Source: Candidatus Endobugula sp.
GTDB taxonomy: Bacteria > Pseudomonadota > Gammaproteobacteria > Pseudomonadales > Cellvibrionaceae
NCBI GenBank assembly: GCA_020628895.1
Contig: JAHDEM010000002.1
Coordinates: 1-64,000, forward strand
Direction of reading: 5' to 3'
DNA: 64,000 nt
Each line of letters starts with the position of its first letter. The first letter of the stretch is position 1. The notes beneath the pieces were generated by a model, which made no database searches, was not told the DNA's origin, and saw only the letters and a program-made list of their open reading frames with translations. The translations under genes and the position numbers were made by a program. Shown in pieces: positions 1 to 32,819 of the stretch.

Positions 1-52
1 CGTCGGGCTCATAACCCGAAGGTCGTTGGTTCAAATCCAGCCCCCGCTACCA
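1..52 (+). tRNA. metY: 3' part of initiator tRNA-fMet (CAT), truncated by window start
   Basis: CGTCGGGCTCATAACCCGAAGGTCGTTGGTTCAAATCCAGCCCCCGCTACCA: anticodon arm with GGG/CCC stem and CAT anticodon, T-arm, acceptor 3' strand and CCA. Confidence 0.93.
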
Positions 53-1716
53 ATTCTATCTATGTGGGCGAAAGCCCCATTGATAGCCTTATTATCATTC
101 GATGCGTTCAAGCATAGTTTGTCCAAGATTTTCATATCTCTCGTCTCCAAAGACATATTCAAGATTCCAGCTAAATCACCGTATAGATCAATACGCAGGC
201 CTTTCTCGCCTTCTTCTGGTGTTAGCACCACTTTTTCGATAAGCCCCCTTAAATGCTGTGAAGCTTCGGCGCGCGCGCCATCCGCATTCAACGATGCCTT
301 TAGGTCTTTAATGGCTTGGTGGTAACGTGAAGCCATGGCCGGATGAATCAGAGGTTTGAGTGCGGGTTGCACCGTCAGGGCTTGTTCTGCTTTCTCAATG
401 CGCTCAGAAACACTTTCCAGATCGTCTTTCACCATACTGGCGGGGATACCGTCTTTGATGGCCTGTATTAGGCGCTCGCGCTCTTTGAGAAGGCTGTCAC
501 GTTGAGATTCAAGTGATTTACGCTGCGCATTGGCCTGCGCATGCAAGGTGCTTAAATGCTTGGTGTATTCTTTACAGAACACATTGACCAGCTCTTCACG
601 CATGAGATGGCCTTGCAAGCCATCCAAAACATAGCCCTCAAGCGCTTCTCGTTTGATGGTGCGGCGATTGTCACAGACGCTATCCCCTTTGTTCTTGGCC
701 GCAGAGCAGCCATATTGGGTAGAGTTGATTTTGGAATACCCGCCACCGCAAACGCCACACTTGGTCAGTCCTGATAACAGATATTGGGGGCGGTTCGTTT
801 GCCAAAGCGCGGTAGATTTACGATCCAGTGTTTTCTGGCGCGTCTTAACCGCTTCCCATAGCTCAGAATCAACGATGCGTTGCTCTGGTACATCCTGAAT
901 AATCCATTCAGACGGATCATTCAGGCGCGTTACACGTTTTCCTGTGGCAGGGTCTTTGATAAAGCGCTGTCTGTTCCAGATCAGGCGACCGATATACAGT
1001 TCATTGTTCAGAATGCCAGTACCGCGCTTGCGGTTGCCGTTTATGGTGGATTGCCCCCAGCTTTTGCCAGATGGGCAAGGTATGCCTTCTTCGTTGAGCT
1101 GAGCAGCAATAGCTTTGGGTGATTTGTTTTCAATGCCATATTCTCGGAAGATGCGACGGATGATGTCGGCCTGCACTTCATCAATCTCACGATCCCCTTT
1201 GATGGCTTCGCCATTGGCGTCGAACTGTTTTACCACCTGATAGCCATAGGCCAGACCGCCACCTGATTTGCCTTTCTCTACACGGCCACGGAGCCCTCGG
1301 CGGGTCTTGTCGGCCAAGTCTTTCAGGAACATCGCGTTCATAGTGCCTTTCAGGCCTATGTGAAGCGTGGATATTTCGCCTTCTGAAAGAGTGATGATCT
1401 TAACGCCAGCAAACTCCATGCGTTTAAAGATACCTGCAATATCCTCCTGATCGCGAGAGAGGCGATCCAAGGCTTCAGCAATGAGTATGTCAAATTCGCC
1501 ATTCATTGCGGCACTGAGCAGAGATTGAATGCCAGGGCGCATGAGTGATGCCCCTGAAATTCCTGCATCCGTATAACAATTGCCAAGCTTCCAGCCTTCA
1601 GCGCTTGCTTTGTCACTGCACAGGCGAATTTGATCTTCAATGGATGCGTCACTTTGAAGGTCAGAGCTATATCGGGCATATATGCAAGCACGTTGCGTCA
1701 TATTCCTATCCACCAT
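31..1716 (-). CDS. Large serine recombinase (resolvase N-terminus, zinc beta-ribbon and coiled coil); C-terminus reads across the att core into the tRNA
   Basis: ARYSSDLQSDASIEDQ N-terminus, LIAEALDRLSRDQEDIA, CGVCGGGY...C zinc ribbon; stop codon at 31-33. Confidence 0.95.
   Translation of the reverse strand: MVDRNMTQRACIYARYSSDLQSDASIEDQIRLCSDKASAEGWKLGNCYTDAGISGASLMRPGIQSLLSAAMNGEFDILIAEALDRLSRDQEDIAGIFKRMEFAGVKIITLSEGEISTLHIGLKGTMNAMFLKDLADKTRRGLRGRVEKGKSGGGLAYGYQVVKQFDANGEAIKGDREIDEVQADIIRRIFREYGIENKSPKAIAAQLNEEGIPCPSGKSWGQSTINGNRKRGTGILNNELYIGRLIWNRQRFIKDPATGKRVTRLNDPSEWIIQDVPEQRIVDSELWEAVKTRQKTLDRKSTALWQTNRPQYLLSGLTKCGVCGGGYSKINSTQYGCSAAKNKGDSVCDNRRTIKREALEGYVLDGLQGHLMREELVNVFCKEYTKHLSTLHAQANAQRKSLESQRDSLLKERERLIQAIKDGIPASMVKDDLESVSERIEKAEQALTVQPALKPLIHPAMASRYHQAIKDLKASLNADGARAEASQHLRGLIEKVVLTPEEGEKGLRIDLYGDLAGILNMSLETRDMKILDKLCLNASNDNKAINGAFAHIDRIGSGGWI
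37..55 (+). repeat. attL core of integrated element (19-bp direct repeat)
   Basis: CCAGCCCCCGCTACCAATT identical to 32820-32838; overlaps tRNA 3' end. Confidence 0.9.
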
Positions 1717-1915
1717 CTTCTATATCGGGATTGCTAAGCGCGCTGCGGTAAAATTCGTAATCTTCTTCGGCGGCGCGTCTTGCGAGAAACTTCACGAGAG
1801 CGATTATCGCTTCATCGTCGGAACCCCGATTATGACTCGCTTTCAGCGGAGTCTTCAAACAAATCTGAGCCATATTGGACTCATTTTTATTCTGTTTTAT
1901 GAAGGGTTTATCCAT
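1706..1915 (-). CDS. Small protein (69 aa) overlapping recombinase start; probable recombinase accessory
   Basis: MDKPFIKQNKNE...DDEAIIALVKFLARRAAEEDYEFYRSALSNPDIEDGG; start trimmed from the ORF track; overlaps the recombinase ATG. Confidence 0.6.
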   Translation of the reverse strand: MDKPFIKQNKNESNMAQICLKTPLKASHNRGSDDEAIIALVKFLARRAAEEDYEFYRSALSNPDIEDGG

Positions 1916-2209
1916 ATATCCCCCCATAAAAAAGCAGTGAAAGCGAATTACTGCTCTCACTGCCGTATTCTTTGCGCCAGCCGCGTATATCTGAGAGATG
2001 GCACGTTCTGGGTGCGGAACATGCACATACACCCACCTGACCACAAAAAAAGAGAGTTGCATGGAACGCTCTGGCGCTCCCACAATCTCTCATACTTATA
2101 ATGATACGCCTGAAATCGTTAATAAATCGTAAATAAGCACCCTGTAAACCGCATGTTTCTGCCGTTTTTTTGCTTTCTGTTTTTGTGGGCAATAAATTAA
2201 TCACATTCA

Positions 2210-2662
2210 TTACCCCGCCTTTGATGATTTTTTAAGAAGGTAAAAACAGGCAACGATGGATACGATCCACCATTCGATATGCTCAATTGAGAATTGATTT
2301 AACACACCAGCTAGGGCGAAAAGAAATAGCGCCTGTGAAGTAAGTTTCAACAAAACTGTATTTGTTTGCTTATGCGCCTGTGTTGAGAGCCCACGACTAA
2401 GAATTGGAGGCGATTGCCTTGCTTGCAGCATGCGTCCCCAGATGAAAATGCGATACCACGACTTTGCAGCCAAAATTAATAACAGCCATGGTGTTACCCA
2501 ATGGAAAACAAAACTAACTGGCGCGTATTCATAAGGAGGGATTCTCCCATCAAGCCCAATCCACACGCTCCCTGCACATACGCCCATTACAACAATTGAA
2601 ATCCACGCTCTAAATATCATATGCTCACCCTCCATCAAATATCGAAGAAAGAGGCGCAGCAA
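2210..2662 (-). CDS. Small multi-TM membrane protein next to coupling protein
   Basis: Hydrophobic segments; overlaps 3' end of the T4CP gene. Confidence 0.6.
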   Translation of the reverse strand: MLRLFLRYLMEGEHMIFRAWISIVVMGVCAGSVWIGLDGRIPPYEYAPVSFVFHWVTPWLLLILAAKSWYRIFIWGRMLQARQSPPILSRGLSTQAHKQTNTVLLKLTSQALFLFALAGVLNQFSIEHIEWWIVSIVACFYLLKKSSKAG

Positions 2663-4274
2663 TGTTCAGCCCCTGCTTAGTGAAATTAACAGGCCTGCTT
2701 ATTGGGTCGTCGGCAAAGTTTGGATGAATATCGTAAATGGGCGAACCATTTTTATTTCTATATCTCTGATCCAAAAAATAGGCGGTTTTAAAACAGGCGA
2801 TTGGATTGGCATGAGACAAGATAAGAATCTGAGCAACTGGGCTCATCGTCATTACTTCGTCGGGAGTGATAAGCGAACGCGATGTGAGCGCATCCTCTCG
2901 GCTTAAAAAATTGGGATCACTAAAAAGGCGAGCCCGCATCTCAGCGCTGTACTCACTTAACGATTCAATCGTTGTTATGCCGCACAGCCTTGATGTGTAT
3001 TCTGAAGTCATCAGATCACGGGTGCCGAAGATTTGTATAACGCCACTATTGGCAATGAATGTTTGCCACCTCTCACCATAGAGTGAGACGAGCTGATTTA
3101 AGTCCTGCACGATCATGTGGAGCTGCATGCCATATCCCGCCATTAAGCCAAATGCGGTTTCAATGACCTCCATGCGCCCCAAGGCAGCAGCTTCTTCCAT
3201 AAGAAAGTACACGGGAGGGTTTGGCTTGGTCTTAAAGCGGGTTACTGAAGTAATTGCAGAACTTAGCAGCATTCGCAAAAAGCGATTATAGGTAAACAAT
3301 CTTCCAGCAGGCAAAACGACAAAGATATCTGTTTTACCAGTTTCCAGTTCTTCAAAGGTAAAATCTGATTCCGATAAAGTGCGCTGTATTTTTGGGCTTT
3401 CTAAAAAATGCGTATTTTGTTGCGCCGTTGATAATATGCTGGAAAATTCTTTGGGCGCTTTATTAAGAATACGTGCGGCGGCAGAGCGAACATATTCGTT
3501 TGAGCTTTGCATCATGCCGGGCTTTATTAGCACGGCATTGCCTTCTTCATCCTTTTCGTATTCGCCGCCCACAAGGTTTTTGAAATCGTTAGAGGATAGA
3601 CTTAACAATCTTCTCACTTGCGGAATGTCGCGTGAACGCTTGGCTGTCGGCATTAACACCAAAGGCGTGGCCGCAACATAGAGAATTAGCCCCATAACAA
3701 GCGCGCGAGCTTCATCCGTCCAAAACGGGTCTTTTCCGCCTCGGTCAGTGACAAGGCTATCGGCTATGGTCATGGCATCCTCAACAAAGTCATCATTGTC
3801 AGGATCAAGCCAATCCATAATGTTAAACCTTGATTGAGGCATGCCGAGCTTTGAGCAAGCTAAATTCCATGGATCAATAATGATGACTTTATGGCCAAGC
3901 ACGTCTCGCCGATATCGCGCAGCAATTAAAGACAGCTCACCATCCTTTACGTCAAGCGCAACCAGCGAACCACGATGCTCCAAGCATCGCGGCATACTGG
4001 CGGTTAGAAGTTTTCCGCTACGTGTTGGTGCTACAGTTAGTAGGTGCTTTTGAGTGTTTGTGGTTATGCCATAAGCGCGGCCTTTGTTCGCTTCGGCCAT
4101 GCCGTAGCCAAGGAATATGCGCCCACTTTCGCCATAACCTTTTTGGTGAAGGTGGTTTTTCGTCGCCCATTTACTTGAGCCATACAAGTCGGGGTCGCGG
4201 CTATATATCCGCGACGGATGCTGTGCCCCTTGGCTACGGAGTTGCATGCGCACCTCCATAGCAAGGCTTAACAC
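2625..4274 (-). CDS. VirD4/TraG-like type IV coupling protein (soluble, no N-terminal TM seen)
   Basis: YGSSKWATKNHL, LLTVAPTRSGKLLTASMP (Walker A), VYFLMEEAAALGRMEVIE (Walker B), IVQDLNQLVSLYGERWQTFIANSGVIQIFGTRD. Confidence 0.88.
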   Translation of the reverse strand: MLSLAMEVRMQLRSQGAQHPSRIYSRDPDLYGSSKWATKNHLHQKGYGESGRIFLGYGMAEANKGRAYGITTNTQKHLLTVAPTRSGKLLTASMPRCLEHRGSLVALDVKDGELSLIAARYRRDVLGHKVIIIDPWNLACSKLGMPQSRFNIMDWLDPDNDDFVEDAMTIADSLVTDRGGKDPFWTDEARALVMGLILYVAATPLVLMPTAKRSRDIPQVRRLLSLSSNDFKNLVGGEYEKDEEGNAVLIKPGMMQSSNEYVRSAAARILNKAPKEFSSILSTAQQNTHFLESPKIQRTLSESDFTFEELETGKTDIFVVLPAGRLFTYNRFLRMLLSSAITSVTRFKTKPNPPVYFLMEEAAALGRMEVIETAFGLMAGYGMQLHMIVQDLNQLVSLYGERWQTFIANSGVIQIFGTRDLMTSEYTSRLCGITTIESLSEYSAEMRARLFSDPNFLSREDALTSRSLITPDEVMTMSPVAQILILSHANPIACFKTAYFLDQRYRNKNGSPIYDIHPNFADDPISRPVNFTKQGLNIAAPLSSIFDGG

Positions 4275-5283
4275 TCAAAACTTTCTGGCTTTTATAGGCA
4301 AGACCGATGGCACTAAAGTAATGCGATAGCGACTGCTTTACATTGCCGCCTTGCGAAATGAAGTGATCGGTAATTCCTTCAAGGTCGTCTTTATGGTTTC
4401 CGCCAATGAAATATACAAAGGTCAGAATGCCATTTTTATTGGCGAGTAATTCAGCTTTTACTTTTGCATCATTCACGGTGTAACCGTCAGTGATGACAAT
4501 GGCCGCCTTCTGATACCCATTGAAGTAACTGCCCGACAGGTCTGAATAGGCGCTGCTTAGCGCCTTAAAAATATCTGTGCTGCCACTGGCTTCAATATTT
4601 TCAAAGCCAAATCCACCGCCATTACATTGCTGGTAGTTTTTATGGCCGTAAGTTAAATCGGAGTTAAAGCTACCGACGGCACATAGCGCATGCGACGGCA
4701 ATGAATTAAGGAAGTTATTCGCCGTGCTTTTCACCGCTTCTATGTTGCCAGCCATAGAGCCAGAGCGATCAAGCAGCAATGCAATGCCGATGTTGGGTGG
4801 TGCTTGCTGAACGGTTTTGTAGTCAAAGCACAGCTTTTCACCACTCATAGAATAAACCGCGACGCTATCAGGAGGTGGTGAAACAAACTGACCACTGACA
4901 TCTCGAAAGCTGGCAACGATATTGAGCTGTGAAGGGTTTCCCGATGTTTGAATAATCTCGGAGGTTCCACCGCTAAAGGCGACAATAATATTGTTCGACT
5001 GATCGATATCGAACCCCGATACGATCTTAATGCCATTAGCATCGACCATTCCGAACTTGGAAATTGTTCTTATGAGAATGTCTGATGCATCAAGCGAGGG
5101 GTCAGTTTTTAACTTCAAAGAAATGGACTTTTCAAAATCATATTTTGATCGAATCACAATGATCGGCGCTGAATACTCTCTTTTAGATTTAACAGTGATA
5201 ACAGGCTCATTTGCCAGCAGGTTGGTGTTGCAGAAGGCCGAAAGGCCAACTGCAACTGCTAGATTTTTAATGAAAGTTTTCAT
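4234..5283 (-). CDS. Secreted VWA-domain protein
   Basis: Signal peptide MKTFIKNLAVAVGLSAFCNTNLLA; MIDAS DRSGSM; VITDGYTVNDAKVKAELLANKNGILTFVYFIGG. Confidence 0.82.
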   Translation of the reverse strand: MKTFIKNLAVAVGLSAFCNTNLLANEPVITVKSKREYSAPIIVIRSKYDFEKSISLKLKTDPSLDASDILIRTISKFGMVDANGIKIVSGFDIDQSNNIIVAFSGGTSEIIQTSGNPSQLNIVASFRDVSGQFVSPPPDSVAVYSMSGEKLCFDYKTVQQAPPNIGIALLLDRSGSMAGNIEAVKSTANNFLNSLPSHALCAVGSFNSDLTYGHKNYQQCNGGGFGFENIEASGSTDIFKALSSAYSDLSGSYFNGYQKAAIVITDGYTVNDAKVKAELLANKNGILTFVYFIGGNHKDDLEGITDHFISQGGNVKQSLSHYFSAIGLAYKSQKVLSVKPCYGGAHATP

Positions 5284-5297
5284 CGATACCCCCCCAC

Positions 5298-5978: not shown

Positions 5979-5980
5979 GA

Positions 5981-8335: not shown

Positions 8336-9619
8336 TTAGACGCTAAAAGCGATTTTCTTAAGCCACTCATGCTTTTTCTCAAGCATGTGACCACGACCAT
8401 ATTTCGGCCCCGACTTCTTGTGCCCCATAAGCTCGTCAATGACTTCCTCTGGCGCGCCTGCGTCGCGGAGGCGGTCTTTAAAGGTATGGCGTAGCGAATA
8501 GAGGGAATGATTTGGTGTTGGCTTTAAATCGTTTTCACGTAAATATTTATTGATGGTCGTGGAGGCAGTATCGGCAGTGCGATAATGGTTAAAGCCACTC
8601 GGTAATTGCTGGAAGGCATGAAGCGCCGCACCAACGAGCGGTACTTTGCGCTCTGAGGTAAGTGTTTTGAGCGCTTTGTTTTCACGCGCGCGAATCCAGA
8701 TATAGGGAATAGGCTCATCCAGAACGATATCTTCTTCTGTAAGGCCGATCAGCTCAGATTCACGCGCGCCAGTATCGGCCATGGCGAATACTAAAAGCCT
8801 CGCTTCATCATTGAGGCCATTTAGGCGATGCTTCGACAACAAGACATCTTGAACATAGCTGGCCTCAAAAGGTGGCCTTGATTGCTCCAGCTCTTTAAGG
8901 CGTATTTTTGAAAACAGCACATCAAAGTCGGTCGCCACTTCATATTGAAGCCCGACCACCTGAAGCATGTCTTTCACATACATCATATTTTTATTGGCAG
9001 TCGCGGCCACGACTTCGCCTTTTTCAATGCGATCCATCCACCATTGCCGGAACTGCAAAATGTCAGAGCGAGCAATGGATTTAAGAGGCTTATCCTCGAT
9101 AGCGCTGATAAAGTAATTGATGGCAGCAAGACGCGGGTTTTTCCATTTACGGATTTGATGCTCTGACTTATTGGTGAGCCTATCACGGCATAGCGGCCAG
9201 TATTTTTCCGCACAAGTGCTTAACGGTAACTCTGGCACATCCGTGCCGCCAAGCACGGAAGAGACTGTTTCGGGTTGTTCTATGGCCTTGTTTGCCGTCT
9301 TTAGGCGCTCAACAATTTCCTCTAGTGGCTCTTTGGCAATTTCAACGGCATTCTTATAGGCAAAGCCATGGGCTTTTGCGAGCTTGATTGCGGTGCGATA
9401 TTCGGCTTCAGGATCAGCTTTGCCATTGCCTTTAATCAGGCTGCGCCAATAATCTTCGATATAGTCGTTATAGATGGCAGCTTTTCGGATGGCTTCTTTT
9501 TCATCTTTTGTGCCCAAAGATATTTTGATGATGGCGCGCTTATCATAGTCGGACACGTATTCAGGAACGCGCCTGCGATAATAAAAATTCTTCCCTCTGC
9601 AAAATACATAGTTCGCCAT
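8336..9619 (-). CDS. Tyrosine recombinase/phage-type integrase
   Basis: TGARESELIGLTEEDI, HSLYSLRHTFKDRLRDAGAPEEVIDELMGHKKSGPKYGRG (R..HxxR..H..Y pattern). Confidence 0.92.
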   Translation of the reverse strand: MANYVFCRGKNFYYRRRVPEYVSDYDKRAIIKISLGTKDEKEAIRKAAIYNDYIEDYWRSLIKGNGKADPEAEYRTAIKLAKAHGFAYKNAVEIAKEPLEEIVERLKTANKAIEQPETVSSVLGGTDVPELPLSTCAEKYWPLCRDRLTNKSEHQIRKWKNPRLAAINYFISAIEDKPLKSIARSDILQFRQWWMDRIEKGEVVAATANKNMMYVKDMLQVVGLQYEVATDFDVLFSKIRLKELEQSRPPFEASYVQDVLLSKHRLNGLNDEARLLVFAMADTGARESELIGLTEEDIVLDEPIPYIWIRARENKALKTLTSERKVPLVGAALHAFQQLPSGFNHYRTADTASTTINKYLRENDLKPTPNHSLYSLRHTFKDRLRDAGAPEEVIDELMGHKKSGPKYGRGHMLEKKHEWLKKIAFSV

Positions 9620-9623
9620 CCAT

Positions 9624-9893
9624 GTGTCCCAATTTGTAGCCCACTTTGTGTACCATTTTTAGGTAAAGCAAAAATGTGCCTTGGTCAATTGAAAAGTAAA
9701 TTTCAATCAATACAACATGTTAGCGGGTAAATAGTTAAGATTATGTAAATGAAAATGGTGGAGGGGGCAGGATTCGATTTGAAAGTTTTCACCTCTAATT
9801 ATTATTCTATTTCAGTGCGTTAGGTATTTATTAGAAATTACTACTATAAAAATTTGTGTCCCAGTATGTGTACCATTTTGTGTCCCAGTTTTT
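9624..9893. promoter_or_regulatory. Candidate intact attP of the tyrosine integrase: tRNA-3'-end-like core flanked by arm-type repeats
   Basis: GTGTCCCA at 9624, TGTGTACCATTTTT at 9647, core TGGTGGAGGGGGCAGGATTCGA 9756-9777 (reverse complement of a tRNA 3' end), GTGTCCCA at 9856, TGTGTACCATTTT at 9867, GTGTCCCAGTTTTT at 9880. Confidence 0.65.
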
Positions 9894-14939: not shown

Positions 14940-14956
14940 TTAATTTCTCTTTCTTT

Positions 14957-16405: not shown

Positions 16406-16534
16406 CTAAAGTCCGTCAATTCGGTTGGCTGCAAACAATTTAGTGCAGAAACTCCAACAATCATAGGTGTTTTTGGTTGTTCCTTCCTCTATTTTCCCAT
16501 ATTCTCCCCTATAGTTATGAGGGTGATACATGCT

Positions 16535-16717
16535 ATGACAGATCGAATATTGACCTTAAAAGAGGTCGCGGCGTATTTAAAACTCGCTGAGAAAACCGCC
16601 TATAAGCTGGCAGCAGCAGATAAGCTGCCCGGTTTTAAGGTTGGAGGGAGCTGGCGCTTTAAAAAAGAAGATATCGACCAGTGGATCGAAGAGCAAAAGA
16701 ACACGAATAAAGGGTAA
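16535..16717 (+). CDS. Excisionase-family/MerR-like HTH protein
   Basis: MTDRILTLKEVAAYLKLAEKTAYKLAAADKLPGFKVGGSWRFKKEDIDQWIEEQ. Confidence 0.85.
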   Translation: MTDRILTLKEVAAYLKLAEKTAYKLAAADKLPGFKVGGSWRFKKEDIDQWIEEQKNTNKG

Positions 16718-16723
16718 AACCAC

Positions 16724-21534: not shown

Positions 21535-22741
21535 GGTAAAACAAGAGAAAACTAATCAAGAGCTTTTGGCTGAACTTGGCGTAGAGGTTAAGCAAGAAAA
21601 GAAAGCTGCCAGAACACCAAAAGAAGAGCGCATCATCGCAGGCTTTGAGGAAATTCAGCGATTTGTAGAAGAGCATGGGCATGCTCCAGAGCACGGTGAG
21701 AACAAAGATATATTTGAGCGCTTGTATGCCACAAGACTGGATCAGATTCGAAAGCAGGAAGAGTGTCGCACTCTCGTTGAAGAAATTGATCATCAAGGTC
21801 TTTTAGCTGGCAGCTTGCAAGTGGCTGAGCCTCCAGCCGAATACAGTACGGACGAAGAGCTACTAGCTGAGCTAGGTGTTGAAGCACCTAAAGAAGGTGA
21901 TATTACCTACCTAAAACATGTGAAGTCTCAAGCAGACAAAAAGGCGGCAGAAGAGATAGCTAACCGCACTCCGTGTGAAGACTTCGATAAATTTAAACCG
22001 TTATTCGATAAGGTTCAAAGCGATTTAAAGCATGGACTTGTAGAAGCTAAATTGCTCAAAGATCAAAAAGACCGCGATTACATGGCCAAAATCGAACAAG
22101 GCGATTGGTTTATTGTAAATGGCCAAAAGGCGTATGTTGCCGAGTTTAGTAAAGAACGCAATCACGGCTTTGATAAGAATGACTATAGACTTCGTGTGAT
22201 CTACGACAATCGCACGGAAAGTGACTTGCTATTGCGCTCACTTCAGAAAGCGCTTTATGAGGATGAGGCTGGCCGAAGAATTGTTTCTCTTTCGGCAGGC
22301 CCGCTATTTGATGACGCAATCGAAGATGATGATTTGGCTAGCGGAATTATCTATGTGTTGCGCAGTAAGTCCGATCACCAAGTAGTTAGCCGAAACCGAG
22401 ATGTTATCCATAAGATAGGTGTCACAGGTGGTAAAGTTGAAAAGCGAATTGCCAATGCCAAGCTTGATCCGACTTTCCTGATGTCAGAGGTAGAAGTTGT
22501 GGCAACCTACAAGCTATCGAACATTAATCGAACCAAGTTAGAGAATTTGCTCCATAAGTTCTTTGTCGGAAGTCAGTTAGATATAGAGGTTCCTGATCGC
22601 TTCGGGAATATGGTGAAACCGAAGGAATGGTTTTTAGTGCCGCTATTTGTGATTGATGAAGTTGTTGAGAGAATCAAGGATGGTTCAATTACTGATTTTA
22701 AGTATGACTATAAATTGGCTAAGTTGGTTGAGGTGAGGTAG
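21527..22741 (+). CDS. GIY-YIG (T5orf172-like) nuclease with N-terminal duplicated ELLAELGVE motif
   Basis: SGIIYVLRSKSDHQ...VIHKIGVTGGKVEKRIANA...TKLENLLHKFF. Confidence 0.8.
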   Translation: MAEVKQEKTNQELLAELGVEVKQEKKAARTPKEERIIAGFEEIQRFVEEHGHAPEHGENKDIFERLYATRLDQIRKQEECRTLVEEIDHQGLLAGSLQVAEPPAEYSTDEELLAELGVEAPKEGDITYLKHVKSQADKKAAEEIANRTPCEDFDKFKPLFDKVQSDLKHGLVEAKLLKDQKDRDYMAKIEQGDWFIVNGQKAYVAEFSKERNHGFDKNDYRLRVIYDNRTESDLLLRSLQKALYEDEAGRRIVSLSAGPLFDDAIEDDDLASGIIYVLRSKSDHQVVSRNRDVIHKIGVTGGKVEKRIANAKLDPTFLMSEVEVVATYKLSNINRTKLENLLHKFFVGSQLDIEVPDRFGNMVKPKEWFLVPLFVIDEVVERIKDGSITDFKYDYKLAKLVEVR

Positions 22742-22806
22742 CGACTTTGCGTCGATATTGAGATTTCAATGAATTTTAAACAAAGGGATTTAAGGCGGGA
22801 TTTTTT

Positions 22807-23496
22807 ATGAAAGATTGGTTTCCATTCACCAGCTACGATTTCTACAGCTATCTTGCATGCGGAATGGTTTTCCTTTTTGGTGTTGATTACTGGTATTCAG
22901 GTGGTCAATATCTATTGCACGAATGGACGGTTTCTCAAGGAGCTTTAATTGTCGCATTGTCGTACATAGTTGGCCAGATAATAGCTATACCTTCTTCAAT
23001 GGTGCTTGAACACTGTCTGGTACGTAGTGCTTTGCGAGCTCCAGCGATTTTAATGCTTTCGGAGAAGCAAAATAAAACTGAAAAATTTATCGAGAAGTAT
23101 TTGATCGGTCGTCATTATTCTCCTTTGCCAAAAAATGTAATCAGCCGAGTATATATGAGAGCTGAGGAGGAGACGGGGCTTTCGTATACAGCTTTAGAAG
23201 CTGATGTAAATGAAATTTTTGCTCCTGCATTGGTTAACGCCAGAAAAACCGCTGAAATCCGTGACAGGATTGATTTCTTTCGTAACCAATATAGCTTTAG
23301 CCGTAATGTATCGTTTAGCGCGTTTCTAGTTTTTTTATTAATGCTTGATGGTTATTTTCGAATCGGAAATGAAGATTTCTTAGCTGGTATGATTTTCGCG
23401 TTTTCTATTAGCTTTGGTATGTTGGTTAGATTTATAAAATTCTATAGCTGCTGCGCCGCTGAGGTGTTGCGAAGTTATGCGAAGCAGAAGGTATAA
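22807..23496 (+). CDS. Membrane protein, unknown function
   Basis: Multiple hydrophobic segments; located in the defence operon. Confidence 0.6.
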   Translation: MKDWFPFTSYDFYSYLACGMVFLFGVDYWYSGGQYLLHEWTVSQGALIVALSYIVGQIIAIPSSMVLEHCLVRSALRAPAILMLSEKQNKTEKFIEKYLIGRHYSPLPKNVISRVYMRAEEETGLSYTALEADVNEIFAPALVNARKTAEIRDRIDFFRNQYSFSRNVSFSAFLVFLLMLDGYFRIGNEDFLAGMIFAFSISFGMLVRFIKFYSCCAAEVLRSYAKQKV

Positions 23497-23497
23497 A

Positions 23498-25279
23498 ATG
23501 ACCGAAGAAGTCGTTGCAAAAGTGAAGAGCATAGATATCGGTGGTGAGTGGCTCACAAACGGTCATCTAAAAGCTTGTATCCTTAAACTTTACCCGCCAA
23601 CTCAATCTGAGTGGGAGAATGATGGAAGTCGTGCTAATAACCTCTCCATGGCTACACAACTTCTTGTGCCCCCTGATGAATCCTCTCAAAGCTTATTGGT
23701 ACAAGAGTTCCCCGAAAAATCTGCGGTTGTGATAGCTCCTGAATTGGCTTTCGGGTCTCCAGATTTTCAGTCATTGGATACCCTTGTAAAAAATTATAAC
23801 CAGAATCTTATTTTTATTTGCGGCTTCGGGTTCTCGAATGGGAGTGACTTGGCTACTTTGGCACGGAGAACTGATGTTGAAGGCGTTTGGAACATAGAGC
23901 CTAACGCTAGTAAGCGATATAACGGCGGCTGGGTGTGGGTGAAAAACGGTTCTTCCACACAATGTTATATCTTCCTCAAAAATTATTTGGAACAGAACAC
24001 GGAAATTACTGTTGAAAACATTGCAACAGGAGATTATATCCTGCGCCTCAATGGCAATGACATAGTTATCTTTCCATTGGTTTGTGCAGACTTGATATCC
24101 AAGGAAGATGGCAGTCCTAGTAGCCGAATTGAACAATCTCTCAATAGAAACAGCAATAATAATCAGCGAGTATTGGTGACTGGATCGCTATTGAATAAGA
24201 AGTCAGAAAGTGATCATTGGAAGACTGCCATAGGTGATTTGTTAGATTCATCAAAAGCATCAAATGTTAGATTGTTATTAAGCAATTGCATTAACCCAGT
24301 TCCGGTGAAAGATGAAGAAATAGACAAGTGGCGATGTTTATCTGGAGCATTCCAGCATCGTGAAGGGTGCAAGCCGCCAGTCAAGCCACTCCCATATATT
24401 CGCTACGTTAATGGTGAAAAATTTTCTGGTCTTGTCTTACGTAATTCTGAGGTCGGTGCGCTTTTTGGAAAGTTGCAGTGGACAAATAATTCATCTGAGG
24501 GAAAACAAGCTTTTTCAGAGTGCGCACAACATGTTTGGAGTGGCGATAAATTTCATTCTTGTGATGCTATTTGTGCTGCGGATGAGCTTTACCGCTTTGT
24601 AATAAGAAATAAAGGAAACTTGCTACATAGTAAAATTACCTCAAATGAGGCAACAAGAACCCTTGCTGATAGTGAGCTTGATAAGCTATTAACTGAATTA
24701 TCGCCAACCTCAAATTCCCCCCTTCGTGCTGTTGCAGGGAAAATTTTTCAGAAATGTTTGAAGGGGGTAAAGCAAGATGCACAGTTCTGCCCAGATCAAC
24801 TATACAGCCGTTCAGAGAATCTCGATTGCGCAATTACGACACTAAGTCTTATTCAGCATGCTATTGAAGCCGAGCTTATGCCAGAAGGGAAAGAACTTGG
24901 GTATGGTCAGTTGCTGTCAAATAATGAAGAGCAAGAGATTTTGATTTGGGATTCTTCGGAGCATACAGCTAATCAGTTATACAGTCTTGTAAAGGAAGGT
25001 ATTGTTAAGGACGGTGGGAGTGCTCGCCCTTTAATGATTGTTGGTCGAGGTAATGGCGGTGGAAGTTTTCCTGATGAAGGTCGGATACACAGCAATCGGC
25101 TCGCGGATATTTCTGATGCCCCGCCACTAAATGTTGGTAAAGATATATGCGAAGCGAATGATCGAGTTGTTTTCTGGAAAAATCAGGGAAAAGTCGATGA
25201 TATATTGGCGTCTGCCGATCCTAGGCAGGATTTGGTTGCGAGCTTACGAGAAGAAATTATAGTGCCCGAGGATTCATGA
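23498..25279 (+). CDS. Nitrilase-superfamily-like (carbon-nitrogen hydrolase) putative effector
   Basis: VVIAPELAFGSPDF (E), GGWVWVKNGSS (K), NDIVIFPLVCADLISKED (C): E-K-C triad order. Start trimmed to ATG 23498. Confidence 0.62.
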   Translation: MTEEVVAKVKSIDIGGEWLTNGHLKACILKLYPPTQSEWENDGSRANNLSMATQLLVPPDESSQSLLVQEFPEKSAVVIAPELAFGSPDFQSLDTLVKNYNQNLIFICGFGFSNGSDLATLARRTDVEGVWNIEPNASKRYNGGWVWVKNGSSTQCYIFLKNYLEQNTEITVENIATGDYILRLNGNDIVIFPLVCADLISKEDGSPSSRIEQSLNRNSNNNQRVLVTGSLLNKKSESDHWKTAIGDLLDSSKASNVRLLLSNCINPVPVKDEEIDKWRCLSGAFQHREGCKPPVKPLPYIRYVNGEKFSGLVLRNSEVGALFGKLQWTNNSSEGKQAFSECAQHVWSGDKFHSCDAICAADELYRFVIRNKGNLLHSKITSNEATRTLADSELDKLLTELSPTSNSPLRAVAGKIFQKCLKGVKQDAQFCPDQLYSRSENLDCAITTLSLIQHAIEAELMPEGKELGYGQLLSNNEEQEILIWDSSEHTANQLYSLVKEGIVKDGGSARPLMIVGRGNGGGSFPDEGRIHSNRLADISDAPPLNVGKDICEANDRVVFWKNQGKVDDILASADPRQDLVASLREEIIVPEDS

Positions 25280-25854
25280 CAGAAGCTAATTCAAATACGG
25301 AACTTAAAGAATATTTCGTACAAGCGGGATTTGTAGATTCAACTGAGCTTATGGCCGATATCTGTGATATTCCAGATAGGGTGTTCGTAATGCACAATAG
25401 CTACGCTCTGGTGGTCGGATATGCAGCGTTGCCGGAAGAAAACGAGGCGGATTCTTCGTTAATGGAAGCAAAAGAGCGAATGCATGCTTTTATCCGTAAG
25501 GCATTATTAGTTTTAGAAAACCAAAAAGGCCTTATTGTTGATGGATATCTACTTATAGCACTTCATCAAGCGCCTCGTGCAGAAGTAAAAGAGGTCGTTC
25601 GGGATATTGAATTAGATACGAAAGTTTGTAGAAAGCATGTTGTATGGCCTGTGGAGAATGGGAATGGCTTAGAGAGGTTGCAATTCGTAACTATACTTTC
25701 TCTACCTGATCCGCTTCGTGGCAATTCTGCTAACGCAACTTCTTTTGAATTGTCTGTTGAGGCCAAAAAACTGCTTGCTAAGTATGATGAGCTTGGAAGT
25801 CTGGAGCGGTTATTAGATGCAATTAAAAACGGAGAGCTAGCCGATGCTAATTGA
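25276..25854 (+). CDS. Middle-component/LmuC-like small protein
   Basis: ATGA overlap with upstream effector and overlap with downstream SMC gene; 192 aa; YLLIALHQ...CRKHVVWP...LSLPDP. Confidence 0.55.
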   Translation: MTEANSNTELKEYFVQAGFVDSTELMADICDIPDRVFVMHNSYALVVGYAALPEENEADSSLMEAKERMHAFIRKALLVLENQKGLIVDGYLLIALHQAPRAEVKEVVRDIELDTKVCRKHVVWPVENGNGLERLQFVTILSLPDPLRGNSANATSFELSVEAKKLLAKYDELGSLERLLDAIKNGELADAN

Positions 25855-28810
25855 TAATCTTCAAATACAGTGTTTCAGAGGAATATCTGACTCTTTATCA
25901 TTAGACTTTACGGCACCTTTAACCGTTTTATATGCACCTAATGGTACAGGAAAAACCAGTGTTTGCGATGCCGTAGAATGGGTTTTATGTGGAGGTGTTG
26001 GACGGTTAGGGAAAGATGAAAGCATTCGATGCAAATTGGGTGATGACAGCCTTAAAACTACTGTTGAAGCCAGTATTCCTCAAAATGGCAGCCCATTTTT
26101 TATCAAAAGGGAGTTATCTGGCTCGGCTGCTCCACTTTATTGGAAAGATATTGATTGTGATTACACAGTTGCGACTGACCAAGAACTGCTCAGACGTTTT
26201 GTTAAAGCGTTACCTCCGAGTGGGAATTCAAATAAAGCTAAAGTGGACTGGGTACGATCAACACGGTTTCTTGAGAGCGATTCTCTGAGGCTTCTTATAG
26301 ACAGCGACAAAGAGTCAAATGATACTAGAAAACTAATTTTCTCAAGTTTATTTGGAGTAGCAGAGTATCAAAAGAACGAGCGTGACCTTAACAGGATTTT
26401 GGGCAAGCTTCCTTCTGAACGAAAAATTAATACTGAAATAAGCAAAATTAATAAGAAAATTGAAGAATATGAAGAATTAATAAAGAAGCTGACTGCAGAG
26501 CAAACTGCACCATACAGAGATCACGTATATAACTTGCTCAGTACTATTTCTGACAGCTTCGGGATTGCAAAAAATACAGACAAAGAAACTGACCTCCAGA
26601 AATATCATGAAACCTTAGAGGTTCATTATATTAAACATGTTGAGTCTCTAGTTGAGAAGAAATCTATACTAGCTTTTATTCGAGATAAAGTCGGGATTTA
26701 CCAAGAGTACTTGTCTAATTATGAGGCTCTCAACAAGACAATTGATGCGCGTGTTTCTAAGCAAGCTTCATTGACTCAAGATTTGAATAAGAAGCAGGCC
26801 GAGATTGCGGAAAATCAGGAATCTTCTCAAAAAAGAGATGAGCTAATTAATGAGCTCCATGAAACTGTAAACAGAATAAAAGACGAGAAGGCAACTTGGC
26901 TTAGCCTGTACAATTTGTACACAAGCATTCCCCTTGAGGTCGGTGTCTCAAAAAACAGATCGACTGAAATTTCTAACTATATTGTTTCTACAGAACAAAG
27001 AATTTCAACATTAAATGAAAAACTTCTTTTAGTGGGAGAACTTATCAATTTACTTCCATCATGGCAGAAGAAACATGCGGAGCTCAGGGGAATAGGTAGT
27101 GAGCTTGAGGCATTACGAGAGCGAAAATCAAAAGATGCGTCTGATATTCCCCTTGCAGAGCAAACATCAAAAATAAAATCAGAATTAGATGCTTTGCAAT
27201 CTTCACGTGAGAAGGTTCTGGGGGAAATTAATCTGCTGTTATCTTCGGGGAAAAAGTATGTTGAAACACACGCGGAGGATTCAAAATGTCCACTGTGTGA
27301 GCATGATCACGAAAGTAACTTTGTTCTTCAAGAAAAAATTAACACTCGCTTTTCCAAGCTATCAAGCAAGTCTAAAGAGGAAGCTGTATTAGCCTCGAGA
27401 CTTGATGAACTAACTCAGCTTTTGATTCAAGAAAATAACGATCTTAAAAAGGCTGAAGAATTAGCCAGAAATAAAATTGTTCTCATAAATGCCATTCAAG
27501 AAACAAGTGATAAGCTAATTGCGGTGGGCTTAGAAAAGTCAGATATATCTAAGCCAGAGTCTGTCTCTGAGAAACTTGAAGGCCTTCAGGTAAAAAACCA
27601 AGCCACGTTGGAAAAGTTACGCCAGAATATTGCCCCTTACAAAAGTGGATATGAAGCAGTTAGCAAATTAGAGGAAATGCGTATTACAACTCAGTCCTTA
27701 TTATCTTTATGGTGTAAGCGACTAGAGATAAGCGGTGAAGAATCATTTGATATAGATGGTATTGGACACGCATTGGAAAAACTAGAGGCAGCCCTTGAAA
27801 ATAAAATTAATGAACTGAAGCGGTTACGGGAAGACTCAAAACCAAATGTTAAAAAGCTCTCTGATGAATTACTAAAACTAGATGAAGAAAGTAAGAAAAT
27901 ATCTGCTGATATTGCGTCAGCCAAAGAGCAAATTACTCCAATTCGTAACTTTATTCAGGAGTATAAAAGAAAATGGTCGACAATTTCTGAGGCTGATGTT
28001 TTAAGTGATGCTCAAATCGAGAATGCTGCTGTCAGCATCGTAAAAAAGGAACAGATGCTTAACGAAATAAAGGGTCTTTTTACAAAAGTAGAGGAATATT
28101 TCGTTAAAATAAAAGAGTCAGAGATAAAAGAACGAGAGCACGGACTATACCAAAAGGAAATTAAAGAGGCTCAGGACGAGCTTAAGGAATGGAATCATCA
28201 AGCCAAAGCACGCTCTGTTGTTGAAGCTGAAATTGATCTTATAAAGGAAGAAATTAGACGTTTTATAGCGGAGGAGATTCGTCCTCTTACTAACATTATT
28301 AATACTCTTTATTTGCGCGCTCAAGGAAATCGCTTTATAAATTCGATAGAGGCTCGTCCTAGCAAAGAAGGTTTCTTGGAGTGGATTGCTGAGCTTAATG
28401 ATGAAGGTGAGTCGTTTGAAAAAATGCGGTCTTTGAGTCAAGGTCAGAGGCAAGATTTGGCTCTCTCCATCTTTTTAGCGCGTGCTAGAAGTCTTGGTGG
28501 AACTTTCTTCTTGGATGAACCGCTAGCTCATTTAGATGACCTGAACCGTGTTGCATTGCTTGATACGCTAAGAATAATAGTCTCTGAACAAAGAGCCACT
28601 AATCCTCTGCGCTTAGTTCTTACAACAGCCAGTAATAATCTGCTCAGACATTTGAGAGAGAAATTTAGTCTGGTGGAAGATGCCGATGGTAGACCTGCTC
28701 TTCGAATTTACAAAATGAGTGGTAATCCTAAAGTTGGTTTGCATGTAGAGCCTCCTGAACTTGTGCATTCCCCTAATAGGTTGTTAACGCATCATTCTAT
28801 TCACGCTTAA
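25844..28810 (+). CDS. SMC/Rad50-like ATPase with zinc hook (LmuB/ABC-3C-like)
   Basis: VLYAPNGTGKTSVCDAVEWVL (Walker A), CPLCEHDH hook, SLSQGQRQDLALSIFLARA (signature), GTFFLDEPLAHLDD (Walker B/D-loop). Confidence 0.92.
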   Translation: MLIDNLQIQCFRGISDSLSLDFTAPLTVLYAPNGTGKTSVCDAVEWVLCGGVGRLGKDESIRCKLGDDSLKTTVEASIPQNGSPFFIKRELSGSAAPLYWKDIDCDYTVATDQELLRRFVKALPPSGNSNKAKVDWVRSTRFLESDSLRLLIDSDKESNDTRKLIFSSLFGVAEYQKNERDLNRILGKLPSERKINTEISKINKKIEEYEELIKKLTAEQTAPYRDHVYNLLSTISDSFGIAKNTDKETDLQKYHETLEVHYIKHVESLVEKKSILAFIRDKVGIYQEYLSNYEALNKTIDARVSKQASLTQDLNKKQAEIAENQESSQKRDELINELHETVNRIKDEKATWLSLYNLYTSIPLEVGVSKNRSTEISNYIVSTEQRISTLNEKLLLVGELINLLPSWQKKHAELRGIGSELEALRERKSKDASDIPLAEQTSKIKSELDALQSSREKVLGEINLLLSSGKKYVETHAEDSKCPLCEHDHESNFVLQEKINTRFSKLSSKSKEEAVLASRLDELTQLLIQENNDLKKAEELARNKIVLINAIQETSDKLIAVGLEKSDISKPESVSEKLEGLQVKNQATLEKLRQNIAPYKSGYEAVSKLEEMRITTQSLLSLWCKRLEISGEESFDIDGIGHALEKLEAALENKINELKRLREDSKPNVKKLSDELLKLDEESKKISADIASAKEQITPIRNFIQEYKRKWSTISEADVLSDAQIENAAVSIVKKEQMLNEIKGLFTKVEEYFVKIKESEIKEREHGLYQKEIKEAQDELKEWNHQAKARSVVEAEIDLIKEEIRRFIAEEIRPLTNIINTLYLRAQGNRFINSIEARPSKEGFLEWIAELNDEGESFEKMRSLSQGQRQDLALSIFLARARSLGGTFFLDEPLAHLDDLNRVALLDTLRIIVSEQRATNPLRLVLTTASNNLLRHLREKFSLVEDADGRPALRIYKMSGNPKVGLHVEPPELVHSPNRLLTHHSIHA

Positions 28811-28880
28811 TACATATAAGAAGAATTTTGGCGAGCAATGAAAAATTCGAAATTTAGGTGGCTTATGGGGTTAAAGGAAA

Positions 28881-29060: not shown

Positions 29061-29601
29061 TGTTACCTCCTGTTTTTGGAGGCCGTGACTGCCACGGCCT
29101 TTGTATGGCCGCGTGTTTGTGCAAAGTGACTGATCTGCACCTTAGGTCGCAATAATGTGAAGAGGCTTTACGCTTGCTGATCCGTTGTCACGTTGCGCTA
29201 GTGGTAATGCTAAAAGGCAGTGCTGGTTAAGGGCTCAATCAGGTGGTGCTGATTGATTAAAAATTGCTGGTAGTGCTAAAAAAGCACGACTGCTTGAAAG
29301 GCGTTGAAAGTTTTCGCTGCACTAGGCTGAAAGTTCAATAAGGTGTGAACACTGATCGTGTTCGCTTGATTCAATAATTACGTGCCCCTTTTGGGTAAAC
29401 GTCAAAATATCACACAACTTGTCTCCATCAAGACATCCCCCTTCCTTCCGCGCCCGAAAAGACTGGGCTTGTGCAGGACGGGCGGTTCCCCCTGTCTGGA
29501 TTACGCCAAAACATGTGATCTTACGCTCGCTTCTCTCGCTCCTTTGTCTGGGGTTTTCAACCCCAAAAGGGGATGTGTTTTTAAGATTAAGGAGAAAAGC
29601 T

Positions 29602-30114
29602 ATGAGCGAAGAAATCAGAATTTATGTGGCATGTTTGGAAGCGTATAACAGCGGCTATTTGCACGGTGTTTGGATTGATGCAACGGCAGACATTGACGAC
29701 ATTCAAGACCAAATAAACAGCATGCTGGAATCCAGCCCCGTAGAGGATGCAGAAGAATACGCCATTCACGACTTTGAAGGTTACGGCAGTTATCGCCTGT
29801 CAGAGTATGAAGGCATAGAAAGTGCCCACGAAGTAGCCTGTTTTATTGAAGAGTATGGCGAGATAGCCGCCGAATTGATTAGCCATTTTTCAACGCTTGA
29901 AGAAGCACAGAAAGCCATGGAGGAAGATTACCAAGGCGAGTATGCAAGCCTCTCGGATTACGCGCAGGAAATCACGGAAGAAACAAGCGAAGTGCCGAGC
30001 CATTTACAATTTTATATCGACTATGACCGCATGGGGCGCGACATGGAAATGAGCGGCGATATTTTCACAATCGAAACAGGCTATCAGGAAGTGCATGTAT
30101 TTTGGAACCGCTAA
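29602..30114 (+). CDS. ardA: ArdA antirestriction protein
   Basis: MSEEIRIYVACLEAYNSGYLHGVWIDA...EEYAIHDFEGYGSYRLSEYEGIESAHEVACFIEEYG; acidic DNA-mimic composition. Confidence 0.93.
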   Translation: MSEEIRIYVACLEAYNSGYLHGVWIDATADIDDIQDQINSMLESSPVEDAEEYAIHDFEGYGSYRLSEYEGIESAHEVACFIEEYGEIAAELISHFSTLEEAQKAMEEDYQGEYASLSDYAQEITEETSEVPSHLQFYIDYDRMGRDMEMSGDIFTIETGYQEVHVFWNR

Positions 30115-30148
30115 GGCGGTTCCCTTCATGCGGAAAGGGAATTTTAAA

Positions 30149-30490: not shown

Positions 30491-30493
30491 TTG

Positions 30494-30576
30494 ATTAAAA
30501 ATCGCGCCGCCAAGCTTGGGGCTTGGCGGCAATGCTCGCTCTCAAATTGAGGCTGCGCTAATAAGGGATTTTTAAT
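30494..30576. terminator. Bidirectional terminator-like region between convergent genes
   Basis: GCCGCCAAGC-TTGGG-GCTTGGCGGC stem inside an outer inverted repeat ATTAAAAATC (30494-30503)/GATTTTTAAT (30567-30576). Confidence 0.55.
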
Positions 30577-30898
30577 AAGGAAAAACGCCAGTAAATGGCA
30601 TTTTGCTATTTAATATCGCCTGAATATCTTCAGGCAAATAAATCGTCGGATCGTCATAGCCGATCCGAATTGCGGAATTATTGCGCGGCATGAATTCCAT
30701 GCCGTCTTTTTTGATAGAAAAAATGAGCGTGTTGTGCGCAAGCCAGCGCCCGAAGCGCACTTCATAGCCTTCGCTCTCAAGTAGTTCGGCGATTTCAGGC
30801 GTTTCAATTTTTCCATCGCCGTCATCGTAGCCGAATTTTGAAAAGGCATGGCTCCAGTGGTAGCGGTTTCCGCAATGTTCGCATTTATCACAAGCCAT
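30572..30898 (-). CDS. Hypothetical protein with CxxC
   Basis: MACDKCEHCGNRYHWSHAFSKFGYDDGDGKIETPEIAELLESEGYEV. Confidence 0.5.
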   Translation of the reverse strand: MACDKCEHCGNRYHWSHAFSKFGYDDGDGKIETPEIAELLESEGYEVRFGRWLAHNTLIFSIKKDGMEFMPRNNSAIRIGYDDPTIYLPEDIQAILNSKMPFTGVFPY

Positions 30899-30912
30899 GC
30901 CATTGTCCTTTC

Positions 30913-32256
30913 TTATATCTCAGGCTCAAAATCCATGCCTTTGTCATCATCACGCCTGTTTTGACGGTTTGGTGCATCGGTATTTTGAGTGTTTTTGCTT
31001 TGCGTATTGGTTTTCGAGCGATGAGCGTGTTTTGATTTTTCCTCATGTTTGGCAACATGAGAAAGATCACGCACCAGCGCTTGGCGCTCTTTTTCTTGAA
31101 CGTCGCGCAGCAATTGGATTTGCGTTTGTAAGTTCTGGCGCTCGGTTAACTGCTTTTGAATCAGTTCTTCTTGCTGTTTACGATCACGCAAATGTGCCTG
31201 CCATGCTTCTTGCTCATTGCGTTTTCGGGTTTTCCAGTAGCGGCCATTAAGCTTGTCCCAAATGCCTTTAAAGCCTTTGCGGATTCTTGCGGATCGCTTC
31301 AGTTCTTCAGCTTGCCAGCGTTTTTGCTGATATTCCTTAAGGCTGGCGCGTACCGAGCGGTGTTCATTGGTTAGCTTGGCCTTATCGGCCAGCAGAGGTT
31401 TGAGCTTTTCATTGTGTACGTTGCGCAATTCTACTTTGTAAGAATCAAACAGTTTTGAAAGCTGGCCTTGTATGCCGTTTTTCACCTTCTGCACTGATAG
31501 CAAGTCCTTGGCGTTACCAAGGCGTGCTTCTAGGGCTTTGGCTTTTTGCCCAAGCTGGCGCGCGAGTGAATACACTTCGCCATATACATCTAAAGCCACA
31601 AAACCGCGTTTATCGCCTTTGGCTAAAAAGTAGCCTTTTTCACGAAGTGCATGCTCGAAACTGGTTTTGGTGTCGGATATTGCCCAGCATTCCTGAAGCT
31701 CACTTTTTATGTCCGAAGCTTTGCGGCCAATACGCTGTGCTTGCTGCCATTCGGCGCGGGTGAAGTTCAGCGGGTTTTTCTTGGTTTTGTCTTTGAAGCC
31801 TTCAGGCAGCTTCCAGCCATGTTCGAGATACAGTGATTTTGAAATATCATTGAGCTTTAGTTTTGGGTGCGAGATATTGACCGCCTTCATCTCGTCCGTA
31901 TTGATGCGGCTCCAAACGCAGTGCGCATGGCGGCGGCCTTCCTTTTCATGGAAGACCACCACGCGGGGCTGACCTTCCAGCCCCAGTTTTTGCTCCACGC
32001 GCTCCAGCGTTTTTTCAAAGGTCTCAATATCGACCTTTTCATCCTGCGGCGGATTCAGGCTCAGGGAATACATGAATTGCTTGCACTTGGTTCCCTTAGA
32101 TAGCGCATAGGCTTCATTCAATGCGCCGAGAACATCTTGCGCCATAAAGCCGCTCACCTCATGCACATTGACGTGCTCATTTTGCTCCCCGTTGAGCAGG
32201 TGAAGCGCCATTTGGCGACCGCCAGCGCGTTGATTACCCTTGAGGATCATCGTCAT
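30913..32256 (-). CDS. Relaxase/mobilization nuclease (MobA/VirD2-like)
   Basis: MTMILKGNQRAGGRQMALHLLNGEQNEHV...VVFHEKEGRRHAHCVWSRIN (HxH metal-binding motif). Start trimmed. Confidence 0.9.
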   Translation of the reverse strand: MTMILKGNQRAGGRQMALHLLNGEQNEHVNVHEVSGFMAQDVLGALNEAYALSKGTKCKQFMYSLSLNPPQDEKVDIETFEKTLERVEQKLGLEGQPRVVVFHEKEGRRHAHCVWSRINTDEMKAVNISHPKLKLNDISKSLYLEHGWKLPEGFKDKTKKNPLNFTRAEWQQAQRIGRKASDIKSELQECWAISDTKTSFEHALREKGYFLAKGDKRGFVALDVYGEVYSLARQLGQKAKALEARLGNAKDLLSVQKVKNGIQGQLSKLFDSYKVELRNVHNEKLKPLLADKAKLTNEHRSVRASLKEYQQKRWQAEELKRSARIRKGFKGIWDKLNGRYWKTRKRNEQEAWQAHLRDRKQQEELIQKQLTERQNLQTQIQLLRDVQEKERQALVRDLSHVAKHEEKSKHAHRSKTNTQSKNTQNTDAPNRQNRRDDDKGMDFEPEI

Positions 32257-32662
32257 CCTCCTTTTTAGGTTCACTTTGGGGCTTGAGCCCCAATGCCTTA
32301 ATCAGGGTGTCACGCATCCACTGAATGGCCGTAACAGACTCATTGAGCGATTCCACAACGTCATGATTGACGGGGAGGGAGCCAGAATTAGCCGCCTTGG
32401 CGAGCTGGTTAATATTGGCACTAATACGGGATTGGCCGAGCGCCCCAATGAGCTTAGCGATGGCCTTTTGATCAATATCAGCAGTTTCACCACGGGTTCG
32501 CTTTTTGGGCATTTCGGGCATATCTTCTTTGAAGATCAGCCAGCGAATGTAAGCCGCCAGCGGTCTGCCTGCCGCAGCCGTCTCTAGCGCCTTGCGCTCT
32601 TCCTCGGTAAATCTCATGGAGAATGGAGGTGGATACTTGGTTTTTGGCGTTTTATCGACCAT
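32234..32662 (-). CDS. MobC-like relaxosome accessory protein
   Basis: FSMRFTEEERKALETAAAGRPLAAYIRWLIFKED...; overlaps relaxase start. ATG at 32662 preceded by GGAGGGG. Confidence 0.8.
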   Translation of the reverse strand: MVDKTPKTKYPPPFSMRFTEEERKALETAAAGRPLAAYIRWLIFKEDMPEMPKKRTRGETADIDQKAIAKLIGALGQSRISANINQLAKAANSGSLPVNHDVVESLNESVTAIQWMRDTLIKALGLKPQSEPKKEDDDDPQG

Positions 32663-32819
32663 TTTAAGCCCCTCCACTTGTCAAAATGGGGCTTTCGCCG
32701 TTATACTCCGCGCCCTGTGAAGCGTGGGCTTCCTCTAAGCTAGATAGTAACGCGCTGATATGTGGTGGCTTAGAGGCAATATCAGGGGCATTTACCAGCA
32801 GCTTAGACAGCGTTGGCAA

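Follow-up and report, generated by a model that had tools for sequence, protein, structure and literature searches.

A recombinase–mobC–relaxase operon divided at its own attachment site and probably licensed by excision

The ssrA islands of Dehalococcoides, putative integrative and mobilizable elements, encode the CcrB-like serine recombinase DsiB, and the 3′ end of its gene always overlaps the left attachment site (attL) at the RNA gene; the authors suggested that full function may be reached on the circle only, where the 3′ fragment is restored (PMC3146451). In Myxococcus phage Mx8, the phage-type attachment site (attP) lies within the integrase coding sequence and integration supplies a new 3′ end (PMC6070905). 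The transfer genes of Tn916 have no promoter in the integrated form, which is insulated by a terminator; once the element is excised, they are transcribed over the joined ends (PMC11658703). Here we analyse a 64,000-nucleotide stretch of Candidatus Endobugula sp. DNA (contig JAHDEM010000002.1, positions 1 to 64,000; hereafter the window), which carries an element of about 32.8 kb at a tRNA-Met(CAT) gene. The attP of this element lies inside the gene of a large serine recombinase, and integration would divide this gene from the mobC-like and relaxase genes to which excision would join it. Each part of the arrangement has a precedent in Tn916, Mx8 or DsiB, and we found the combination, a split recombinase–mobC–relaxase operon with a maintained frame, nowhere described in openly licensed literature, which is a weak negative.

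Like DsiB, the window recombinase is CcrB-like, and the 3′ end of its gene overlaps attL at an RNA gene. The DsiB islands differ in targeting ssrA and in carrying a second, small serine recombinase (PMC3146451); neither a relaxase operon joined across attP nor a test of frame conservation in the 3′ fragment is described for DsiB. As in Mx8, attP lies inside the recombinase gene, which acquires a new 3′ end on integration, but the Mx8 enzyme is a phage integrase with tested effects on specificity, and no mobilisation operon is split (PMC6070905). By their architecture, the mobilisation genes of the window would resemble the Tn916 transfer genes, with no promoter-like site found before them in the integrated state and a terminator ahead of them; the Tn916 promoter is Porf7 and works with an antiterminator (PMC11658703). 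Unlike that of Tn916, the window terminator belongs to the host tRNA gene and would be left behind on excision. To our knowledge, the att site of Tn916 does not lie inside its recombinase gene. An original prediction made from the window sequence had named Tn916 as a precedent for circle-dependent transcription of transfer genes, which the literature bears out (PMC11658703), and had called a simultaneous change of the recombinase C terminus less usual, a fair statement that nonetheless has close precedents in Mx8 and DsiB. The integration state of ICEKp1 at a tRNA decides which promoter reads int, that of the host in the chromosome and that of the element once excised, and the abstract describes no protein change (PMC13023037). 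Paracoccus phage vB_PamS_Pami6 encodes a serine recombinase with predicted integration at tRNA-Met(CAT); it differs from the window element in being a phage, and the available excerpt of its description reports no split recombinase gene or mobilisation operon (PMC6536676). In a review of integrative and mobilizable elements, the known members with a serine recombinase come mainly from Firmicutes and are inserted within genes (PMC5704250).

Attachment sites and the excision junction

The window begins at contig base 1, inside the tRNA-Met(CAT) gene whose 3′ part (1–52, plus strand) is the integration target; the 5′ part lies beyond the contig start. This truncated gene is detected by the Rfam tRNA model (1–49, 5′-cut) but not by ARAGORN, which finds an intact tRNA-Met(CAT) at the same place in relatives. 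A 19-bp att repeat, CCAGCCCCCGCTACCAATT, occurs in two identical copies (19/19) at positions 37–55, the attL core, and 32820–32838, the core of the right attachment site (attR). The recombinase open reading frame (ORF; 31–1716, minus strand, 561 amino acids) passes through the left copy and ends GSGGWI* within the tRNA. Joining the ends in silico at the repeat converts it into a 611-amino-acid frame ending ...GSGGWLPTLSKLLVNAPDIASKPPHISALLSSLEEAHASQGAEYNGESPILTSGGA*. The 51 codons and TAA gained in this way (32664–32819, minus strand; hereafter the tail) hold the right arm of attP and the conserved DNA blocks GCGTTACTATC, GAGGAAG and GGGCGCG, and their TAA (32664–32666) stands 1 nt before the ATG (32660–32662) of the mobC-like gene, with GGAGGGG just upstream. 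The mobC-like gene (32234–32662, minus strand; Pfam PF05713) is followed by a relaxase gene of MobA/VirD2 type (30913–32274, minus strand; PF03432) and a 108-amino-acid ORF (30572–30898, minus strand), probably the last gene of the operon. Both the read-through into the tRNA and the open junction had been described in the original prediction and are reproduced to the base; its placement of attP inside the recombinase gene of a recombinase–mobC–relaxase operon is further supported by a palindrome that forms on joining and by in-frame tails in relatives. Its integration site is refined in two respects: the element sits at an initiator-type tRNA-Met(CAT) gene, in the 3′ end, and the 19-bp repeat is not itself the crossover.

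The integrated 561-residue protein matches Pfam Resolvase, Recombinase and Zn-ribbon, and its Resolvase catalytic domain, Recombinase domain, zinc ribbon, coiled coil and YARYS and DRLSRD motifs are those of large serine recombinases of the CcrB/TnpX/phage type. Its NCBIfam CcrB match (109.5 bits, 1.8e-31) falls below the curated cut-off of at least 900, which sets it apart from the CcrB equivalog of SCCmec. With attP within its ORF and a C terminus altered in the integrated state, the enzyme shares this arrangement with the Mx8 integrase.

A palindrome arises once the element ends are joined, and only then. Its centre lies between positions 10 and 11 of GGTAGCGGGGGC in 9/9 elements tested, and 12–16 of its 21 pairs match, compared with about 5.2 ± 2 in shuffled sequences. 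In the window, the left arm (TAGATAGAATTGGTAGCGGGG, recombinase strand) spans 42–62 and the right arm (GCTGGTTGCCAACGCTGTCTA) 32804–32824, both on the minus strand, and the right arm covers the first tail codons. Differences between attL and attR in two relatives place the crossover between positions 4 and 13: G001 has the host form ...GCAGG at attL and the element form ...GCTGG at attR, and G010 has GGTAGCGGGAGCAGG and GGTTGCGGGAGCTGG, respectively. From the symmetry of the palindrome, we infer that the crossover is the GG dinucleotide at 41–42 and 32824–32825. An attP symmetrical about its crossover dinucleotide, as read here from sequence only, fits the expectation for a serine recombinase, and the 19-bp repeat reflects the restored tRNA end and is larger than the crossover itself. 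Formation of the palindrome on joining the predicted ends also argues against a circle junction that uses another crossover, an outcome the original prediction had named as adverse. About 200 bp beyond attR, at 33015–33040, stands another partial tRNA-fMet 3′ end, CTGCTACCAATT, and G001 carries three successive tRNA-fMet remnants; these remnants suggest repeated integrations at the same tRNA.

Frame conservation and un-split relatives

Relatives were obtained from genomes, mostly metagenome-assembled genomes (MAGs), and few pairs of ends share one contig, as do those of G001 (477 kb) and G007 (323 kb). For 12 mobC-carrying elements, representing about seven lineages and including some close copies, the entry frame of the recombinase at the site was determined separately from the open frame of the mobC-side tail. 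The recombinase enters the core at offset 0 (GSGG...) in six elements (the window, G001, G010, G005, G003 and G004) and at offset 1 (VAGA...) in the other six (G006, G007, three copies in G009, and G011). In all 12, the tail is open in the matching frame, is 56–66 codons long and stops between 4 nt before and 5 nt after the mobC ATG, and in six integrated elements (the window, G001, G010, G005, G006 and G007) the two halves lie about 33–36 kb apart or on separate contigs. The recombinase tree requires at least two changes of the frame label, and therefore both sides have shifted together. Dinucleotide-shuffled tails are open to mobC in the recombinase frame in 2–22% of cases per lineage (0.03 for the window). 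The match between recombinase and tail is not due to chance.

All mobC-linked lineages except one have an open tail. Most recombinases among the relatives run into the 3′ end of tRNA-Met(CAT) and bear tRNA-derived endings, for example GSGGWI or VAGAGFEPTTFGL. The genome of relative L005 gave no mobC match. Spongiibacter G016/G676, of which G676 is a single contig, share the att geometry of the window. Two Spongiibacter loci (L162 2284 and L160 2509) combine this geometry and the palindrome with a short joined tail only and have no mobC by attR; the long tail thus goes with mobC linkage.

Un-split genes occur in two marine MAGs, one of Cycloclasticus (L006/L079; 612 amino acids with tail) and one of SAR86 (L007/L080; 616 amino acids with tail). 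In both, mobC follows directly, and the tRNA-Met of both MAGs is empty (L102 and L103). As assembled, L079 and L080 are not closed circles and count as un-split copies. An in-frame tail in relatives, including these contigs from MAGs with an empty tRNA-fMet, sets aside the concern, raised with the original prediction, that the tail might be absent from all homologues. Plasmid searches for joined recombinase–mobC DNA gave no match, the plasmid relatives being more distant with alignments that end near residue 520–580, and a search of IMG/VR returned two distant loci only. Three un-split copies in PRO23 (G009) were considered as circles and rejected, as all are chromosomal and copy C lies at a tRNA-Ser, where a tyrosine integrase and a matching repeat adjoin it. 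Between the PRO23 copies at G009:C2 205558–259861 and 779667–833856 (loci L094–L101), a core of about 41 kb is inverted with respect to the flanking DNA, which carries the tyrosine integrase.

Expression of the mobilisation genes and alternative readings

A bidirectional terminator of the tRNA gene, identified by folding, lies at 32836–32892 (minus strand −17.9 kcal/mol, z −5.4; plus strand −20.4 kcal/mol, z −5.0; U-tract on both) and in the integrated state directly precedes the right repeat on the mobC strand; integration brings it before the tail and mobC. Similar hairpins lie ahead of the site in G001, G007 and Spongiibacter. A consensus scan found no minus-strand promoter-like site between this terminator and mobC, although promoter scans are weak evidence. 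These observations support the earlier proposal that integration cuts the mob genes from their promoter, and together with the open frame they give an architecture that would fit expression of the Tn916 type, dependent on the circle. A second terminator-like hairpin (1933–1964, minus strand), a possible attenuator, lies directly before a 69-amino-acid ORF upstream of the recombinase.

We consider it likely that the locus is an excision-licensed recombinase–mobC–relaxase operon, a model in which we infer recombinase activity, transcript, coupling and a benefit in timing from sequence. The operon would comprise the 69-amino-acid ORF, the recombinase gene with attP in its 3′ end, mobC, the relaxase gene and the small ORF. 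When the element integrates at the 3′ end of the initiator tRNA gene, crossover would take place at the GG dinucleotide, at the centre of the attP palindrome of about 42 bp, and would restore the tRNA 3′ end while swapping the last 51 recombinase codons for a single codon and a stop supplied by the tRNA sequence. The tail, mobC and relaxase gene would thereby be stranded at the opposite end of the element, with the bidirectional tRNA terminator in front of them and no promoter-like site of their own. Excision would rejoin the gene, take the terminator away from mobC and supply the recombinase transcript from upstream, and a recombinase of about 611 amino acids would be read through the junction to end at the mobC start. 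Excision would then license relaxase expression, which would be coupled to the recombinase in translation, with the benefit in timing that the origin of transfer (oriT) would not be nicked while the element is integrated.

Several observations weigh against this model. The exceptional lineage G008 (L011/L049) has related parts and offset 0, but its 18-codon tail stops well before mobC, and in a separate test it matched 7 of 21 pairs at the same palindrome centre. The recombinase is present without this mobC in G681/G002, G224 and Spongiibacter, and L079 and L080 are not closed circles, in a setting where MAG bins can mix genomes. Synonymous divergence (dS) is also far lower in the tail than in mobC (0.05 versus 0.40 between the window and G001; 0.06 versus 0.27 between PRO23 copies a and c), and therefore the tail DNA itself is constrained and part of its conservation is at the DNA level. 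The blocks GCGTTACTATC, GAGGGAG and GGGCGCG recur among relatives with the same codons nearly throughout, and may be oriT. In an AlphaFold model of the un-split Cycloclasticus protein (18 sequences, shallow alignment), the predicted local distance difference test score (pLDDT) is under 50 throughout residues 511–612, the last of the chain, and the tail peptide probably does not form a folded domain. The low dS, the shared blocks, the low-confidence model and the short tails of G008 and Spongiibacter would all suit a tail that is a by-product, its attP arm and oriT DNA being conserved and merely crossed by the recombinase frame, with peptide and coupling irrelevant. We regard this as unlikely, since it predicts neither the 12/12 frame matches over two frames nor a stop set on the mobC start each time. 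The original description of the extension as ordinary protein and not a chance ORF therefore holds in its second half, on the frames and shuffles, and not in its first, given the few synonymous changes and the lack of a confident structure.

Selection could instead have acted on an enzyme switch as in Mx8, where integration changes the specificity of Int by giving its gene a new 3′ end (PMC6070905): the 561- and approximately 611-amino-acid forms would differ in activity or direction, for example with the long form integrating and the short form excising. The tail does keep a peptide pattern, DIA.KP...LLS..EG, recognisable across lineages, and its ratio of non-synonymous to synonymous change (dN/dS) is about 0.3–0.45 between them. 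It lies, however, beyond the conserved recombinase region, which stops near residue 520, and has no confident structure, and the integrated C terminus past the core is mere tRNA read-through; we find such a switch improbable as the selected function. Because the tail is probably unfolded and its DNA constrained too, coupling to mobC is a likelier role than a new enzyme activity, and the likeliest reason for keeping the frame open is that ribosomes reach the mobC start. It is conceivable, if doubtful, that a single att site serves as a three-way switch, with integration shortening the recombinase (altering its activity or direction) and making the tRNA terminator the off-switch of the mob genes, and excision bringing back the long enzyme along with a translationally coupled relaxase operon.

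Integration at tRNA 3′ ends with repeats of this size is usually the domain of tyrosine integrases, and the window encodes one (8336–9619, minus strand; DUF6538 and Phage_integrase). That it made the insertion with the serine recombinase as a passenger is nevertheless very unlikely: the site forms a symmetrical serine-type attP on one dinucleotide, beside the serine recombinase in every integrated relative, the related tyrosine integrase of PRO23 copy C adjoins tRNA-Ser and has a repeat of its own, and a separate tRNA-like site stands next to the tyrosine integrase of the window. The window contig begins inside a tRNA and the relatives are mainly MAGs, as might be expected if contig assembly or binning had placed together two ends that are not one element, but the single contigs of G001 and G007 hold the same two ends and Spongiibacter G016/G676 show the same att geometry, which makes an artefact extremely improbable and already refutes misassembly for the element family.

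Gene content and implications

Upstream of the recombinase on the same strand, the conserved 69-amino-acid ORF (1706–1915, minus strand; LKTPLKASHN...IIALVKFLARRAAEEDY) overlaps the recombinase start, is found by tblastn ahead of the recombinase in most relatives and is a candidate recombination directionality or accessory factor. Beyond it lie genes for a type IV coupling protein of TraG/VirD4 type (2625–4274, minus strand; Pfam) and a VWA-domain protein (4234–5283, minus strand; Pfam, and tblastn against the PRO23 copies), the latter conserved alongside the coupling protein in relatives from the alpha- and gammaproteobacteria. No conjugation ATPase of VirB4 type was found among the window ORFs scanned; with its own integrase, relaxase, MobC and coupling protein, the element looks like an integrative and mobilizable element. 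A perfect tRNA 3′-end-like sequence, TCGAATCCTGCCCCCTCCACCA, lies near the tyrosine integrase (9756–9777, minus strand) as its candidate attP and recurs in the genomes of G001 and G010. In the PRO23 copy at tRNA-Ser, which has a related tyrosine integrase and its own repeat, recombinase and mobC are un-split, and the family may have two alternative integration routes. Defence cargo is dense at 13884–28810 and includes a PDC-S11 candidate with a Cas4/RNase H-like protein, an MmeI-type IIG restriction enzyme with helicase and T5orf172 genes, and a Csx27-like protein adjoining an ABC-3C/LmuB-like set. A Fic gene (10534–12090) and an ArdA-type antirestriction gene (29419–30114) lie outside this region.

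Together these comparisons provide evidence that selection holds together a recombinase gene divided by its own att site, despite about 33 kb between its integrated halves. They explain the tRNA-derived ends, such as VAGAGFEPTTFGL, on annotated serine recombinases of this family, and the matched ends yield precise predicted attP and attB sites in the initiator tRNA gene. The arrangement makes the untested suggestion for DsiB a testable case and would offer a simple way to bar relaxase action while the element is chromosomal.

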